From Desulfitobacterium dehalogenans ATCC 51507 (GTDB lineage Bacteria > Bacillota > Desulfitobacteriia > Desulfitobacteriales > Desulfitobacteriaceae), in assembly GCF_000243155.2 (NCBI RefSeq), contig NC_018017.1, positions 3,534,001-3,598,000 of the forward strand: a DNA stretch of 64,000 nt, written 5' to 3'. The position numbers and the translations under genes are program-made. Numbering within the stretch: position 1 is the first letter of the stretch; each line of letters opens with the position of its first letter. Shown here in pieces: positions 47,202 to 62,691 of the stretch. The notes beneath the pieces were generated by a model, which did no database searches, had not been told where the DNA came from, and saw nothing but the letters and a program-made list of their open reading frames with translations.

Positions 47202-47894
47202 TTACACCTGTATAATTTTTGTTAACCCCAGCAAAGCCAATTGAGCCACTGCGAGATAAGTTGCCTCATTTGTCTCAGTTTGTAACATCTCAAAAAATTC
47301 CTGGCCCCACTTTTTAAGATGGAGCTCTTCAAACCCTTTGATCTGCTTTTCAATTTGGGTTATTTCTTCAGCGTTTTGCTCTTGGAGGGCCTTACCCTTC
47401 CTGGCATAGAGATACATCATAAATTCCAGCTCTGTGGCCATATGATCTGCCGGTTCTGCAGACTGCTTTACCACTCTGACTCCGGCTTCCCGGTAACAGC
47501 GTTCCGCGTCAAGAGCTGCCGGACTCATAAAGAGCATGACTCCCCCATTGGCTTCTTCGGGATTATGGAGAAAAAGGGTTTCATAAATGCTAAGTGCAGG
47601 TTTCTTCGGATCATCAAACAGTCTTGTATACTCTCTCCTCATCCGGATTAAAAGGGTTGTAGCATCTTCCTCTGCAGAGATAAGGGCGTTTAAGGCCTCT
47701 CTCATCTTCGCTATATCTTCCTGACTGCAGGAAAGTTCCTCAAGAATGTTTACCGCATCTTGTCCATAGCTCCCATCCAGCATGGCCTCAGCCAGTTCAT
47801 GATTGGGAAGCCGCAGGGAAATAGAGAGCATTTGATAAAAATCTGAAATTGCAAAAGCAGTCATAACATCTTGTACCTGAACGTTATTACTCAT
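47202..47894 (-). CDS. TorD/DmsD-family Mo-enzyme maturation chaperone
   Basis: A 230-residue all-helical TorD family protein: SDFYQMLSISLRLPNHELAE, LLIRMRREYTRLFDDPKKPA, LSIYETLFLHNP (the family's P-x-ES-x-F-like motif) and HMATELEFMMYLYARKGKAL. These chaperones bind the Tat signal of a molybdopterin reductase and guide cofactor insertion before export. The clients here are probably the two catalytic subunits at 50057-52513 and 59387-61843. It is the first gene of a three-gene operon with its own promoter and operator. Confidence 0.9.
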   Translation of the reverse strand: MSNNVQVQDVMTAFAISDFYQMLSISLRLPNHELAEAMLDGSYGQDAVNILEELSCSQEDIAKMREALNALISAEEDATTLLIRMRREYTRLFDDPKKPALSIYETLFLHNPEEANGGVMLFMSPAALDAERCYREAGVRVVKQSAEPADHMATELEFMMYLYARKGKALQEQNAEEITQIEKQIKGFEELHLKKWGQEFFEMLQTETNEATYLAVAQLALLGLTKIIQV

Positions 47895-47929: not shown

Positions 47930-47973
47930 ATTTTAACAAAGCTCTAATGGATTCTTCTATATCATTTGATATA
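47930..47973 (-). promoter_or_regulatory. torD promoter with Crp/Fnr-type operator
   Basis: A 16-bp near-palindrome TATATCATTTGATATA (47958-47973) is centred at 47965.5. On the minus strand a -10-like TAAAAT lies at 47930-47935, which puts the operator centre about 42.5 bp upstream of the predicted start. This is the usual place for a class II activator. The same TCATTTGA core recurs at both reductase operons. Confidence 0.7.
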
Positions 47974-48231: not shown

Positions 48232-49407
48232 CTACTTCCGGGCATTTACCCCGAGGTTCAACTTGCTCAAACCCAAATTCAGAAGCAATGCTCCCAGTGC
48301 GACGATGCCCAAAGATAAACCTATTTCGATCAAACTGGGTACATAGGGACCTGTTGTTCCGCCATATACCGGTGGTCCGGCATAAGTGATGAGAGGGTTA
48401 AATAATTGGGCCTGGAGGAGATTCGACTTAATAAGGTAGATGGCAACCAGGGCGAGTACTGCACCTGCAACAATGCTCCCTGCCTTCCCTGATGTTCCTG
48501 GTTTAGACAGGAGCACGATGGCTGCGATTAGAGCCACCAACTCCACCCAGAAGCCTAAAGCTCCTTCACCAAACACCAGCCAATGGAAGGCAGCATATTC
48601 TTCTCCGCCGCCGGGGTAAAGGCCAATGAAGACTTCCCCCACCACTACGATGAGTTCGATACATAAGAGCACGGCAGCCACTTTCCCCATCTTGCCCAGT
48701 AGTTTCACCGGCATTTGGATGTAACCACTTCTTTTTAAAAGGGTGGCCAGAATCATTTGCACAGACAGGGCTGCCACTAAGGCGGCGATCAGGAAGGATA
48801 GGGGCTGTACCGGGGTATTCCAGAGAGGACGGGCAATTTGGAAACAGAAGACGAAGGAGGTCACCGTGACCAAAATTCCGGCGATAAAGGAAATTACGGC
48901 AACAGGCTTCACTGAGGCTTCATCCTTTTTCCCTTCATGGACCAGTATCAGCTGACGGGTAAAGATGATGGAAAGGACCATATAAGAGGCCAGCATGAGG
49001 AAGTCCCAGAACATGGGAGAGGTCAAGTTGCCGCTGGTAATGAACAGCCAGGCCCGTTCCGGGTTACCGATGTCCACGATGATGAACAAGGAGGCGGCTA
49101 CGATACTGGAGACTGCTCCCAGATAGGAAGCAATCCGGGTATAGGGTTTGAATTCAATGAACTTAAAGAGATAAGGTACTGCTGCGAAGAGCAGGCTTCC
49201 GGCAGCAACCCCTGTGAAGATCATAAAGCCCACGATATAGAGGCCCCACATAGTGTTCACACCAAGGTTGGTCACTTGTAGACCTTGGGTCAGCTGCAGT
49301 CCCCAGCAGACTGAACCGAGGACGGCAAAGACTGCGAAGATAATGTTCCACAGATTTGACGAGGTCTGTTTGGTGTTTTTTACGGTGGTATTTGTTTGCA
49401 CTGCCAT
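48232..49407 (-). CDS. NrfD-family membrane anchor / quinol subunit (module 1)
   Basis: A 391-residue integral membrane protein with about ten helices, of the NrfD/PsrC family: LGVNTMWGLYIVGFMIFTGV and AGSLLFAAVPYLF near the start, IVDIGNPERAWLFITSGNLT between helices, and FCFQIARPLWNTPVQPLSFL. PsrC-type subunits exchange electrons with menaquinone and hold the Fe-S subunit at the membrane. It is the third gene of module 1 (catalytic, Fe-S, anchor). It is strongly similar to its paralogue at 57593-58738. Confidence 0.92.
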   Translation of the reverse strand: MAVQTNTTVKNTKQTSSNLWNIIFAVFAVLGSVCWGLQLTQGLQVTNLGVNTMWGLYIVGFMIFTGVAAGSLLFAAVPYLFKFIEFKPYTRIASYLGAVSSIVAASLFIIVDIGNPERAWLFITSGNLTSPMFWDFLMLASYMVLSIIFTRQLILVHEGKKDEASVKPVAVISFIAGILVTVTSFVFCFQIARPLWNTPVQPLSFLIAALVAALSVQMILATLLKRSGYIQMPVKLLGKMGKVAAVLLCIELIVVVGEVFIGLYPGGGEEYAAFHWLVFGEGALGFWVELVALIAAIVLLSKPGTSGKAGSIVAGAVLALVAIYLIKSNLLQAQLFNPLITYAGPPVYGGTTGPYVPSLIEIGLSLGIVALGALLLNLGLSKLNLGVNARK

Positions 49408-49420
49408 ACTTCACACCCCC

Positions 49421-50041
49421 TTAAGTTAAATAATAGACATTCGGCTTGGTGCCTTTTTCTTCGAGCAAGTGGAAATAGCTCCGGCCCTTAATCGCCTTGC
49501 TGACATCGCTTTCCGGGTCGTCGATATCCCCAAAGTAGCGGGCACGTCCAATACATAACTCCATACAGGCCGGTTTTTTCCCTTCCGCCAGTCGGTGGAC
49601 GCAAAAAGTGCACTTGGAGACTGTATTATATTGATGTGGGGTTGTATTGACATCACCCACAGCAAAATCCACACGGTACTCTGGTTTTTTCCAGTTGAAC
49701 TGACGCACTCCGCTATAGGGGCAAGCTACCATGCAATACCGGCAGCCGATACATTTATCATAGTCCTGGATGACGATTCCGTCTTCCTCCCGCTTATAGG
49801 TGGCTCCTACCGGACAGGCTTTAACACAAGCTGGATTATCACAGTGTTGGCAATTCACCGGCAGGTATTCCAAGGTATTGTTGGGGTAAGTGCCTGCCGC
49901 TGTATCCATGGCCTCCCCACCGACGGTAAGGATGCGGTTCCACCAGATCTCATTGGGCAGGTTGTTAGCCATTTTACATGCTACCGAGCAGGTATGACAG
50001 CCTACGCAGCGTTTCAAATCAATTGCCATGGCATAATGCAT
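49421..50041 (-). CDS. Four-cluster 4Fe-4S electron transfer subunit, DmsB/PsrB-like (module 1)
   Basis: A 206-residue protein with 16 cysteines in the DmsB order: CVGCHTCSVACK, CQHCDNPACVKACPVG, CIGCRYCMVACPYSGVRQF and CTFCVHRLAEGKKPACMELC. It carries electrons from the NrfD subunit to the Mo subunit outside the membrane and is co-exported with it. I count 15 substitutions against the module 2 copy at 58751-59371 (about 93% identity). GAGGAGGAATGAAAT precedes the ATG. Confidence 0.95.
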   Translation of the reverse strand: MHYAMAIDLKRCVGCHTCSVACKMANNLPNEIWWNRILTVGGEAMDTAAGTYPNNTLEYLPVNCQHCDNPACVKACPVGATYKREEDGIVIQDYDKCIGCRYCMVACPYSGVRQFNWKKPEYRVDFAVGDVNTTPHQYNTVSKCTFCVHRLAEGKKPACMELCIGRARYFGDIDDPESDVSKAIKGRSYFHLLEEKGTKPNVYYLT

Positions 50042-50056
50042 ATTTCATTCCTCCTC

Positions 50057-52513
50057 TTAAGCTTTCTCCACTTGAACCAATACATCAAAAAAGGCACTGT
50101 TGGCACAGACACTATTCATGACTCTGGATGTCAGATCCTGATAATGTCCCTCAATGAATTCATGCTTTTCCCGACCTTTAGGCAGGCTCAACACTCCCGG
50201 TTGAATCCCCCGGTCCACAACGGCTTTGATTTTGACATAGCCCCGGTCATTATAGAGCTTGACGATGTCGCCGGTCTTAATATTCCGGGCGGCAGCATCG
50301 GAAGGATTGATTCTGACAAAAGGTTCCGGGCTTAATTCCTTTAAGATGGGGACATCCCACCATTGGGAGTGAGTCCGCCATCTTCCCTTATCCTGAATCA
50401 CCGAGAAAGGATATTTTTCATGGAGAGGGTTTTCATGCCATGCTTCGTGAGGAGGCTCAAAATAGGGAAGCTGTTCTTTAGTCACATCAAAAGTCTGACC
50501 ATAGTTATTATTGGGGGCCGGGCTTTCGTTGTAAATCTGCGCTCTTCCGGAAGGAGTAGCAAAAACCCCTCCTTCAGCATAAATATAGGGATCTCCAGGT
50601 AAAGCTCTGAGAATTTTCTCCTTTTTAAGATTTTCTAAAGTTATTCCTAATTTCCTTGCTCCGTCAGTATCCATCCAGAGCTTCATATAGCCCTCTTCAT
50701 CCATGTCAAAGGCATCACCGCAGCCCAGCTTATCGGCCAGCAATTTGTAGATTTCATAATCAGATTTACATTCATAGAGGGGGTCGATGGCCTTCTCCTG
50801 CAAAATGGCATAAGGATGGGTGCTATAGTTAACAAAGACATCATCCACTTCAAACCAATGGGCTACCGGCAATAATATATCCGCGTACTGTGCCGTTTCG
50901 TTCATGTTCATATCGGCAACGACGATGAATTCCAGCTTTTTCATGACTTCCAGGGTGGCTTTCCGCTCAGCACCATTACCCACTTGATTGACATGGGTAA
51001 AGTATATCCCTTTGAGATCGATGGGAGTTTCACCGTACATTTTAGTCTCCAATACCTCAGTTAGCATATTCACCGGTACGGAAAGGGAAGGCTTTGCCCC
51101 GTTCGGGAACATGGTGCCCGCCATATTGATCCAGTCGGTGGCCAGGTTTTCACCCATGCCGCAGAACGCTCCGGATTTGCCCAGGTTCCCTGTGAGAATA
51201 GCCAACACAGCCATGGCAAAATAACCGTAATGGCCATTGACATAGTGGTCTATGCCGAAAAATTCATAGATTGCAGAAGGTTTATTGGTCGCGTAGAGTT
51301 TCGTGATTTCCTCGATCTGCTCCACGGGAATATTGCAGATTTCTGCCGCTTTTTCCGGTGGGTATTCCGCAATGCGCGTCAAAAGCAATTCATAAGCGGT
51401 GGTTACTTTAATACCATTGATTGTATAGGTTCCCCGCAGGGCCGGGTCTTCAACGGCATTGACTGCCCCATAAGAGTTGGTCAGGGCATCCCAAACGATG
51501 GGCTGATCTTTTTGCCCTTCAGCAAGGGTAATGCCTAAATCACTTTGATGAAGGAACTTCCCATCGGATTTCTTAACCAGGAAAGGTGCTCCTGAAGATT
51601 TCTTCAAAAAGGGCTCATCCACCCAATTTTCTCTGACCACAATATTCATCATACCCAGCGCTAAAGCGGCATCGGAACCAGGTCGTACGGGGACAAAGAT
51701 GTCCGCTTTGGCAGCCAAAGCATTGAAATTGGGGTCAATGACTACAATCTTTGCCCCTTTTTCTTTGGCTTCCAGGAAAAAGTGCGTGCTTTGTTGCTGA
51801 GCTCCCACAGGGTTCGCTCCCCAACAGAAAATGGTTTTGGAATTCTTCAGGTCTGCCGGTTCATTCGCCGTAACAAAGGTTCCTTGACCGAGAGCCGGTT
51901 TTGTCCCTTGTCCCCGTGCCATGTCCACCGCCGCCGTAATATTCAGGGCTCCATTGGCATTTTGCAGACGATTCATAGCACTGCCAATCCCTGCACCGCT
52001 TAATGTGGCGTAGCTTCCTGAGCTCCACATCACGCCAAAAGCATATTTGCCATACTGGTCCTGGTACCTTTTCCATTTCTCGGTGATGGTATTGATCGCT
52101 TCATCCCAGGTGATCTGTTCCCATTTCCCTTCTCCGCGCTCCCCGGCACGTTTCATGGGATATTTGAGGCGGTCTTTACTATAGATTCGTTGCACATGGG
52201 TTAAGCCTTTAACACAGATCCGGTTGTACTCCGGATTGGGCATTTCCCTGGCAGAAGTTCTTACCACTTTACCGTTGCGGACATGAATGTTCAAAAAGCA
52301 TCCGCCGGCACAATTGCCGCGGCAGGCACCGCTAAAGATTTGCTCATCATTGATGGTGGCCCTATCGGTGTTTTCCTCTTCCGCTAAAGCAGTCATGGCC
52401 GAACTCCAGGGATTGGCTGCCACAACACTGACCGTTGCCGCAGTTGCTGCCGAAGCTTTAAGAAATGTACGGCGGGACAGATCAGGGTTAAGTCTACTCT
52501 TTTCTTGAGCCAT
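50057..52513 (-). CDS. Molybdopterin oxidoreductase catalytic subunit, Tat-exported (module 1)
   Basis: An 818-residue enzyme of the DMSO reductase superfamily. The N-terminus has a Tat signal (LSRRTFLKASAATAATVSVV). A 4Fe-4S site follows: C-x3-C-x3-C in GACRGNCAGGCF and a fourth Cys in NRICVKG. Molybdopterin guanine dinucleotide motifs include FCWGANPVGAQQQSTHFFLE and VPVRPGSDAALALGMMNIVV. The C-terminal domain has AARNIKTGDIVKLYNDRGYV. The substrate is unknown (PsrA, TtrA, DmsA and arsenate types share this layout). The start at 52513 follows GGGAGGGAGCAAA. It is divergent from the Crp-like regulator at 52847. Confidence 0.93.
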   Translation of the reverse strand: MAQEKSRLNPDLSRRTFLKASAATAATVSVVAANPWSSAMTALAEEENTDRATINDEQIFSGACRGNCAGGCFLNIHVRNGKVVRTSAREMPNPEYNRICVKGLTHVQRIYSKDRLKYPMKRAGERGEGKWEQITWDEAINTITEKWKRYQDQYGKYAFGVMWSSGSYATLSGAGIGSAMNRLQNANGALNITAAVDMARGQGTKPALGQGTFVTANEPADLKNSKTIFCWGANPVGAQQQSTHFFLEAKEKGAKIVVIDPNFNALAAKADIFVPVRPGSDAALALGMMNIVVRENWVDEPFLKKSSGAPFLVKKSDGKFLHQSDLGITLAEGQKDQPIVWDALTNSYGAVNAVEDPALRGTYTINGIKVTTAYELLLTRIAEYPPEKAAEICNIPVEQIEEITKLYATNKPSAIYEFFGIDHYVNGHYGYFAMAVLAILTGNLGKSGAFCGMGENLATDWINMAGTMFPNGAKPSLSVPVNMLTEVLETKMYGETPIDLKGIYFTHVNQVGNGAERKATLEVMKKLEFIVVADMNMNETAQYADILLPVAHWFEVDDVFVNYSTHPYAILQEKAIDPLYECKSDYEIYKLLADKLGCGDAFDMDEEGYMKLWMDTDGARKLGITLENLKKEKILRALPGDPYIYAEGGVFATPSGRAQIYNESPAPNNNYGQTFDVTKEQLPYFEPPHEAWHENPLHEKYPFSVIQDKGRWRTHSQWWDVPILKELSPEPFVRINPSDAAARNIKTGDIVKLYNDRGYVKIKAVVDRGIQPGVLSLPKGREKHEFIEGHYQDLTSRVMNSVCANSAFFDVLVQVEKA

Positions 52514-52549
52514 TTTGCTCCCTCCCACATAAAATGATTGTTTGTGTAT

Positions 52550-52685
52550 ATTTTATCAAGGAAGGAAATAGCCTTCGATACCATCTGATAGTTTCTGACT
52601 TTTCATTTGCTATATCTTACTATTTCAAATGATACACGGAATTGTATCATTTGATTGATTAATTGGATTAAGGATATGTTATGAT
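52550..52685. promoter_or_regulatory. Divergent promoter region with four phased Crp/Fnr-type operators
   Basis: Four copies of the TCATTTGA-like palindrome are centred at 52584.5 (CCATCTGA), 52606.5 (TCATTTGC), 52628.5 (TCAAATGA) and 52650.5 (TCATTTGA), exactly 22 bp apart. Copies three and four form an 11-bp inverted repeat TCAAATGATAC / GTATCATTTGA. The left -10 for the reductase is TAAAAT (minus, 52550-52555) and the right -10 for the regulator is TATGAT (52680-52685). Outer operators are centred 41.5 bp from each predicted start. Confidence 0.75.
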
Positions 52686-52846
52686 AAGTTCAAACTGGGT
52701 GCATACTACAGATTAACATCGTCATGTAAAACACTGATTTCACAAAGCTATTTCCAGTCCATAAGAGCTTTGCCACAGACCGTTCCTCTATTTATTCTTC
52801 GATAGCAGATTCATCTGCCTAATATTAAAGCAATGCAGGTGTTGGG

Positions 52847-53428
52847 ATGAAAAAACAGTGTGAAGGCAATCCTTTCTGTGATGCTTTGGATTCGGGTACC
52901 CGAGCTTACCTCTGTGAAAACTCCACTTTTATTGTGCAAATGCCTCGGCAAATCCAATCTACGGATTTGGGAAATCCGCGTTTAGAGATTATCCATAAGG
53001 GAGTGCTCTTTACTTTTAATTTATTGGAAGACGGGAGCCAGGAATTTATACATCTTATCAAAAAGGGCGATGTTCTGGGCACTCGCCATTTCTTTGATCG
53101 ACTGGCCATTCCCGAATATAATTTAATGACTCTCACTGAGGTGCATAAATGCAGCATTCCCATTAAGGTTGCGGAGAAGCTTTACCACGAAAACAGGGAC
53201 TTTGCCCAAGCTCTGACGGAAAACCTTCTCGATATGATGAATAATCTCACTCGTTGGGTCAGTATGCGTTCCAAGAATGGCACGGAAAAGGTTCAGCAAG
53301 TTTATGAATTGCTCCAGGACTTGGATATCGATATGACTATGATTACTCAGGATGATTTGGCCCTCATCGCCGGAGTCAGCAGAATCACTGTCGCCAGAGC
53401 CATGAAGGATATCTATAAGAAAAATTGA
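52847..53428 (+). CDS. Crp/Fnr-family regulator of module 1
   Basis: A 193-residue regulator. Residues about 30-130 form the cyclic-nucleotide-binding-like beta roll (LEIIHKGVLFTFNLLEDGSQ; LIKKGDVLGTRHFF). A dimer helix and the HTH (MITQDDLALIAGVSRITVAR, recognition helix SRITVARAMKDI) follow. Cys5, Cys11, Cys23 and Cys102 are all conserved in the paralogue at 62113, an arrangement like the four cluster ligands of FNR. The protein ends right after the recognition helix, so the usual C-terminal wing is missing. It probably binds the TCATTTGA operators, including its own promoter. AGGTGTTGG precedes the ATG. Confidence 0.88.
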   Translation: MKKQCEGNPFCDALDSGTRAYLCENSTFIVQMPRQIQSTDLGNPRLEIIHKGVLFTFNLLEDGSQEFIHLIKKGDVLGTRHFFDRLAIPEYNLMTLTEVHKCSIPIKVAEKLYHENRDFAQALTENLLDMMNNLTRWVSMRSKNGTEKVQQVYELLQDLDIDMTMITQDDLALIAGVSRITVARAMKDIYKKN

Positions 53429-61913: not shown

Positions 61914-62027
61914 ATTGTAACAGGTCCGTGCTTCTGACTTCTATCTCATTTGATACCAGATACATATCAAATGATACAATGTCCTATCTCATTTGATACA
62001 AAACGAGCAAATACCTTATGATATAAT
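61914..62027. promoter_or_regulatory. Divergent promoter region with three phased Crp/Fnr-type operators
   Basis: TCATTTGA (61946-61953), TCAAATGA (61967-61974) and TCATTTGA (61989-61996) are centred at 61949.5, 61970.5 and 61992.5, spaced 21 and 22 bp. The left -10 is TACAAT (minus, 61914-61919) for the reductase operon. The right -10 is a perfect TATAAT (62022-62027) for the regulator. Outer operators are centred 42.5 and 41.5 bp from the predicted starts. Confidence 0.78.
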
Positions 62028-62112: not shown

Positions 62113-62691
62113 ATGAAAGAATGCATAAATAACCCCTTCTGTCAATCCTTGGATCTCAAAACCCGGGAGCGCCTATGTGCTCATGCTACAATCACCTATC
62201 AGAAGGCCAAACAAATTCAAGTGGTTAATCCTGAGAATGCCAATCTTGAGATTATTGTCAAAGGAGTTCTCTTTACCTTTACTATTTCGGAAGACGGTTC
62301 TCAAGAAGGCATACAATTAGTCAAAAAAGGAGAGATCTTAGGTACTCATCTCTTATTTGAAAGGCTTCAATTTCCAGTAACTCATACTCTTTCGCTGACG
62401 GATGTCATACGATGCAATTTTCCTATTCATTTCATTGAGAAACTTTTTAACGAAAACCGGGAATTCGCCCAAGCTTTGATGAAGAATCTTACTTTGGACC
62501 ATACCAACAATCTTTCCCACTGGGCATTTCTTCGCTCTAAAAGCGGGCCGGAGAAAGTCGCCTTTATCTATAAGTCCCTTCAGAAATTAGATGTGGACAT
62601 GAATCTCATCACCCAAGAAGATTTGGCACTCATTACAGGGGTCAGCCGGATTACTGTAGCCCGGGCTATGAAAGATATCTACAAAAAGTGA
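62113..62691 (+). CDS. Crp/Fnr-family regulator of module 2
   Basis: A 192-residue paralogue of the module 1 regulator. The same beta-roll is seen (LEIIVKGVLFTFTISEDGSQ; LVKKGEILGTHLLFERL). The HTH is LITQEDLALITGVSRITVAR with the identical recognition helix SRITVARAMKDI. Cys4, Cys10, Cys22 and Cys101 match Cys5/11/23/102 of the other copy. It too ends directly after the HTH (DIYKK), so loss of the wing predates the duplication. ACAAGGAGCTCATC precedes the ATG. Confidence 0.88.
   Translation: MKECINNPFCQSLDLKTRERLCAHATITYQKAKQIQVVNPENANLEIIVKGVLFTFTISEDGSQEGIQLVKKGEILGTHLLFERLQFPVTHTLSLTDVIRCNFPIHFIEKLFNENREFAQALMKNLTLDHTNNLSHWAFLRSKSGPEKVAFIYKSLQKLDVDMNLITQEDLALITGVSRITVARAMKDIYKK

Follow-up and report, generated by a model that had tools for sequence, protein, structure and literature searches.

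A 22-bp operator array between predicted divergent promoters of a molybdopterin reductase operon and its Crp/Fnr-type regulator in Desulfitobacterium dehalogenans

Introduction

The described systems closest to the one reported here are CprK/RdhK of Desulfitobacterium, local Crp/Fnr activators that act at -41.5 of respiratory reductases through a dehalobox, TTAAT-N4-ATTAA (PMC7062800), and FNR of E. coli, which activates anaerobic molybdoenzyme operons from -41.5 (PMC3688515). Desulfitobacterium encodes dozens of molybdopterin reductases without known substrate (one D. hafniense genome has 53; PMC3306737), and the switching of individual ones is poorly understood. Here, we analysed a 64-kb stretch of the D. 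dehalogenans genome, hereafter the window, whose sequence lets an operator, both predicted promoters, a regulator and a small candidate regulon be identified, so that signal and substrate can be sought. In addition, with its even packing, the operator array is a natural setting in which to examine how adjacent Crp-type dimers and RNA polymerase divide among themselves the DNA between divergent promoters.

In class III Crp systems such as deoP2, each promoter is served by two or more dimers of one activator, at sites that usually lie about 50 bp apart, whereas the sites here are packed at 22 bp and are common to two divergent promoters. The best sites, TGTA-N8-TACA, fit the outer triplets of GTA-N8-TAC, the operator of the nitrogen regulator NtcA; NtcA chains are remote profile matches only (E about 1e-8). 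With CprK/RdhK the locus shares the superfamily, the genus, a local regulator beside a respiratory reductase operon and an operator at -41.5, but its operator is of the type TGTATCA-NN-TGATACA and not TTAAT-N4-ATTAA, and it has a tandem 22-bp array, of which the accessible part of PMC7062800 makes no mention. The regulator, in contrast to CprK/RdhK, is wingless and has N-terminal cysteines. Identity with CprK/RdhK was rejected, the operator not being dehalobox-like and the neighbour being a molybdopterin reductase, not a reductive dehalogenase. The likeness to FNR and its class II promoters (dmsABC, narGHJI, nirB) extends to three N-terminal cysteines and one central cysteine in the regulator. 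However, the operators, with consensus TGTATCATTTGATACA, do not follow the FNR box TTGAT-N4-ATCAA, and FNR is a global regulator with one site in 89% of its ChIP peaks (PMC3688515), as opposed to a local regulator with multi-site arrays here. No description of 22-bp Crp/Fnr arrays, or of this system, was found in the open literature, most subscription journals lying outside the search. The locus is thus a variant of known local Crp/Fnr activation, distinguished by its operator, four-site packing and wingless regulator, and not a new class.

Results

Two reductase modules with divergent regulators

The window contains two modules and a chaperone gene:

47202..47894, minus strand: TorD/NarJ-like maturation chaperone (PF02613; TIGR03482 below cut-off)
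48232..49407, minus strand: module 1 membrane subunit, NrfD/DsrP-like
49421..50041, minus strand: module 1 four-cluster Fe-S subunit, DsrO/PhsB-like
50057..52513, minus strand: module 1 catalytic subunit, molybdopterin oxidoreductase with TAT signal (Pfam PF00384, PF01568, PF04879, PF10518)
52847..53428, plus strand: module 1 Crp/Fnr-type regulator, 193 aa
59387..61843, minus strand: module 2 catalytic subunit
62113..62691, plus strand: module 2 Crp/Fnr-type regulator, 59% identical to the module 1 regulator

The mechanical open reading frame of the module 1 catalytic subunit starts at GTG 52528; the true start is very likely ATG 52513, which follows GGGAGG and lies 15 bases inside this longest frame. 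All matches of the reductases to subfamily models fell far below the curated cut-offs.

Single-protein Pfam matches of the regulators were below cut-off, and a profile search matched them to Crp (E about 1e-13). An AlphaFold model of the module 1 regulator, of moderate confidence (pLDDT 79.8), resembles Crp/GlxR with TM 0.70-0.76. Profile and predicted fold place the regulators in the Crp/Fnr superfamily, with one usual part, the wing, missing. Indeed, the chain stops a few residues past the recognition helix in each of five close members, namely both regulators, their orthologues in a second species of the genus (G003) and a relative in a genome of another class (G123), and no C-terminal beta-hairpin wing was found in any of the five, nor in other frames. 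The recognition helix, GVSRITVARAMKDI, is identical in the module 1 and module 2 regulators, and cross-control between the modules is therefore expected.

Cysteines C5, C11, C23 and C102 occur without exception in seven members, the most distant of which is 24% identical. Their N-terminal spacing is C-x5-C-x11-C, as opposed to C-x2-C-x5-C in FNR, and by our own reading C102 falls opposite FNR's central cluster ligand in the alignment. From this cysteine pattern we reasonably infer a putative [4Fe-4S] cluster in the regulator. Another relative (L034 in genome G427), neither beside a reductase nor accompanied by an array, has instead CAQCGNPFC and GCMIP, a displaced set of ligands that would be compatible with an iron-sulphur cluster.

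The operator motif

The ideal full operator, TGTATCATTTGATACA, has a half-site which, read outward from the dyad, follows (T/A)TGATA(C/T)A over 16 sites in two genomes, the most conserved bases being the TGA adjoining the dyad. The 8-mer TCANNTGA on its own is about as frequent in the window as chance predicts (20 copies, with 21.8 expected). The bare 8-mer thus proves nothing, its plain count was dropped as evidence, and the case rests on the longer dyad and its placement. The perfect 12-bp core, TATCATTTGATA, occurs only twice in the whole 4.32-Mb genome, both times in the window (47960-47971 and 61965-61976), and likewise twice in the 5.6-Mb genome of G003, both copies in the corresponding locus.

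Four operators exactly 22 bp apart in the module 1 divergent region

A sequence-only reading of this DNA had proposed four dyad operators spaced exactly 22 bp apart between the module 1 reductase and regulator genes. The coordinates were exact, with centres at 52584.5, 52606.5, 52628.5 and 52650.5 and every gap 22 bp. From left to right, with ranks by the matrix described below, the region reads:

52550..52555, minus strand: predicted -10 element TAAAAT with extended TGA of the reductase promoter, predicted +1 near 52543
52577..52592: operator 1, GATACCATCTGATAGT (8-bp core CCATCTGA, 52581-52588), reductase-proximal, weakest, rank 4, at -41.5 of the predicted leftward reductase promoter
52599..52614: operator 2, CTTTTCATTTGCTATA (core TCATTTGC, 52603-52610), inner, weak, rank 3, at -63.5 of the reductase promoter
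52621..52636: operator 3, TATTTCAAATGATACA (core TCAAATGA, 52625-52632), inner, strongest, rank 1, at -63.5 of the regulator promoter
52643..52658: operator 4, TGTATCATTTGATTGA (core TCATTTGA, 52647-52654), regulator-proximal, strong, rank 2, at -41.5 of the predicted rightward regulator promoter
52680..52685, plus strand: predicted -10 element TATGAT with extended TGT of the regulator promoter, predicted +1 near 52692

A symmetric 16-bp matrix was trained on the outer sites of module 2 and the torD site only (listed below), the module 1 sites being held out. It ranked these four sites 1 to 4 among 320 positions, with scores of 16.3, 13.3, 9.0 and 7.6 for operators 3, 4, 2 and 1, the next position scoring 6.9. 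Per-position p values ranged from 2.5e-6, for operator 3, to 8.6e-4. Three equal gaps among four randomly placed sites have p = 6e-5 (about 6 in 100,000 trials). The reductase-facing site had been read as differing in quality from the regulator-facing one, and it is indeed the weaker, with the correction that operators 1 and 2 are both imperfect dyads and operator 1 is the weakest by the matrix. The spacing corresponds to about 2.1 turns; bound dimers would lie roughly on one face with little or no free DNA between them, making contacts between neighbours plausible. Further matrix matches at 52680.5 and 62017.5 were not counted as operators, since they overlap extended -10 elements, in which TGATATAAT looks like a half-site, and their full dyads are not conserved.

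Further sites lie in the module 2 divergent region and before the chaperone gene:

47958..47973: torD operator, TATATCATTTGATATA, single, perfect core, before the TorD-like chaperone gene, at about -42.5 of its leftward promoter
61942..61957: module 2 operator 1, TATCTCATTTGATACC, at about -42.5 of the module 2 reductase promoter
61963..61978: module 2 operator 2, CATATCAAATGATACA, middle
61985..62000: module 2 operator 3, TATCTCATTTGATACA, at -41.5 of the module 2 regulator promoter

The module 2 centres (61949.5, 61970.5 and 61992.5) are 21 and 22 bp apart, again as first read; this spacing is looser than that of module 1, and no gradient of site strength is seen. The single torD operator is conserved in G003, and the TorD-like chaperone gene is presumably a member of the regulon.

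Outer sites stand at class II distance from predicted promoters

We compared 12 predicted promoters, namely those of both modules and of torD in each of the two genomes of the genus, together with the two promoters of G123. In all 12, a -10 element with at least five of six matches to TATAAT lies 29-31 bases beyond the centre of the outer site, so that the outer-site centres range from -41.5 to -43.5. In 200,000 simulations the observed mean was never attained, a figure to be read knowing that orthologous promoters are not independent. An extended -10 (TGn) is present in 10 of the 10 promoters of the genus, and no -35 element could be recognised in any of these 10. By sequence, each of the 12 thus looks like a class II activator-dependent promoter, having an activator site centred around -41.5, a -10 element and a poor -35. 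This -10 placement, together with the extended -10 and lack of a -35 in the genus, argues for a class II reading, and the molybdopterin reductase operon and its regulator in all likelihood have divergent Crp/Fnr-type class II promoters.

In module 1, the predicted promoters place each outer site at exactly -41.5 and each inner site at -63.5. The proposal that the outer sites activate outward in each direction is thereby matched by -10 elements at class II distance. In class II complexes, alpha-CTD docks just upstream of the activator, so that an inner dimer could also interfere. For the inner sites, the geometry of the sequence-only reading stands, but its statement that a second dimer commonly acts at -63.5 is too strong, since the class I optimum for an activator site lies near -61.5 and FNR promoters with sites that far upstream are few. 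Of the FNR promoters of E. coli, a very small number carry a site as far out as -61.5 or more (PMC3688515).

The array recurs in a second species and in another class

Among the genomes of the family that were searched, regulators at the stringent cut-off occur only in this genome and in G003, of the same genus; with the distant G123, the carriers of the system are two species of the genus and one further genome. Two contig scans with regulator alignments gave no relatives, nor did a scan of plasmids, and a search of the class of G123 yielded no further member.

G003 has both modules, with catalytic subunits 88% and 92% identical and regulators 85% and 76% identical to those in the window. Its module 1 array aligns without gaps, and the four sites, in the same 22-bp register, are again the top four by the held-out matrix. 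Operators 1, 3 and 4 are conserved, the counterpart of operator 1 being GATAGCATCTGATATT; operator 2 corresponds to TTCACTTGATACA in the identical register. Site strengths shift: in G003 the right half of operator 2 makes a better dyad, and operator 3 differs in its left half. Identity is 80% in the sites and 61% in the linkers (p = 0.05), and since the linkers are also fairly conserved, this comparison points weakly to site-specific selection. In module 2 of G003, which spans 44 bp, strong outer sites flank a weak middle site that scores best at 21/23 bp (8.9, versus -13.7 at exactly 22). Strict 22-bp spacing is therefore not required everywhere, given 21/22 bp in the window and 21/23 bp here. 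The expectation that spacing and inner sites would be kept in relatives wherever the promoters are was borne out for module 1 and only in part for module 2.

G123 carries the same module, with a catalytic subunit 41-43% and a regulator 51-54% identical to those in the window. Between reductase and regulator lie three sites at exactly 22/22 bp, the regulator-side site being a perfect TGTATCATTTGATACA. Same-face spacing of about two turns, as first suggested, is thus kept exactly by module 1 of the second species and by the three sites of G123; the G123 sites are the strongest independent support for the array. From the regulator end to the reductase end, matrix scores are 13.3, 16.3, 9.0 and 7.6 in module 1 of the window, 16.1, 16.1, 9.6 and 10.3 in module 1 of G003, and 20.1, 8.7 and 8.4 in G123. 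This gradient from strong to weak, seen in two species and G123, suggests that the regulator promoter would respond first and that the reductase promoter may need more regulator or help from neighbours.

Two other loci were noted. In G055, a wingless regulator 30% identical to these is divergent from a reductase 61-69% identical to these. Its 203-bp gap (L040, 5541-5743) has no recognisable copy of the motif or array, and with the divergent layout retained, operator specificity seems to have changed. G003 encodes a third reductase (L006/L007, contig 9, reverse strand) of 1012 aa, located beside the torD-like gene; it shares about 47% identity with either catalytic subunit, and no copy of the operator core was found before it. 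It is absent from the window, where module 1 directly adjoins torD.

Discussion

Taken together, these results make an evenly packed operator array, common to two predicted divergent class II promoters and recurring in relatives, the very probable reading of this locus. Chance dyads in A+T-rich intergenic DNA would agree with the chance frequency of TCANNTGA in the window, but the held-out matrix ranks, the equal spacing, the class II placement of the -10 elements and the recurrence in three genomes refute this explanation, to which we give next to no credence. The sites might instead belong to another, genome-wide Crp/Fnr regulator, as related dyads with the NtcA geometry, GTA-N8-TAC, are used by other members of the family. 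Perfect cores are, however, found in these loci only, the motif accompanies the local regulator in a genome of a different class, and the two local regulators have an identical recognition helix, all of which makes a genome-wide regulator highly improbable.

Two further alternatives concern the inner sites. They could be functionless remnants or spacer left by duplication of a single operator, with the outer sites alone mattering: the middle site of module 2 has decayed in G003 while both promoters are intact, and the middle site of G123 is weak. Yet none of the five divergent regions lacks an inner site, three of them keep the exact register, and operator 3 of module 1 is at least as strong as its outer neighbour in two species, so we hold this origin to be rather unlikely. 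Alternatively, with the outer sites activating, inner dimers at -63.5 could act as throttles that block alpha-CTD and damp both promoters at high regulator levels. In E. coli, expression of yfiD is reduced by an upstream FNR site, at -93.5, via the AR1-bearing face (cited in PMC3688515), and activating sites at -61.5 or beyond occur in very few FNR promoters (PMC3688515). With the strong inner operator 3 right beside the strong operator 4, the regulator could be held back at its own promoter. Against this, the weak operator 2 is not expected to throttle the reductase strongly, and the register is kept even where sites are weak; throttling is a possibility to bear in mind, if a minor one.

Under the array reading, dimers of the local Crp/Fnr-type regulator would bind dyads of the TGTATCA-NN-TGATACA type, and the module 2 paralogue, with the same recognition helix, probably binds them too. 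From an outer site at -41.5, a dimer would bring in RNA polymerase at a promoter that has an extended -10 but lacks a -35; the leftward promoter serves the molybdopterin reductase operon and the rightward one the regulator itself, and a single site at about -42.5 would bring the TorD-like chaperone gene into the regulon. Active regulator would fill the strong regulator-side pair first and raise its own level, an autoactivation that would fit the gradient; the 22-bp same-face packing could then aid loading of dimers onto the weak reductase-side sites, and the response of the reductase would be sharper and later. For such cooperativity between the dimers, taken by itself, the prospects fall slightly short of even. 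We infer that the signal may be iron-sulphur or redox in nature. The full combination, in which wingless regulators of iron-sulphur type, with a near-dyad operator, form a close-packed row of dimers on one DNA face every 22 bp and so link the two divergent class II promoters, the gradient ordering regulator and then reductase, is proposed only tentatively and may well not hold in all its parts.

Elsewhere in the genome, one-mismatch copies of the motif were mostly intragenic at the 20 places examined, and none was seen before a molybdoenzyme. At G000:C1:266712-266742, two TCANNTGA cores lie 23 bp apart in the intergenic gap just 5' of a gene for a 492-aa protein, a pair that may be due to chance or may mark one more target of these regulators.
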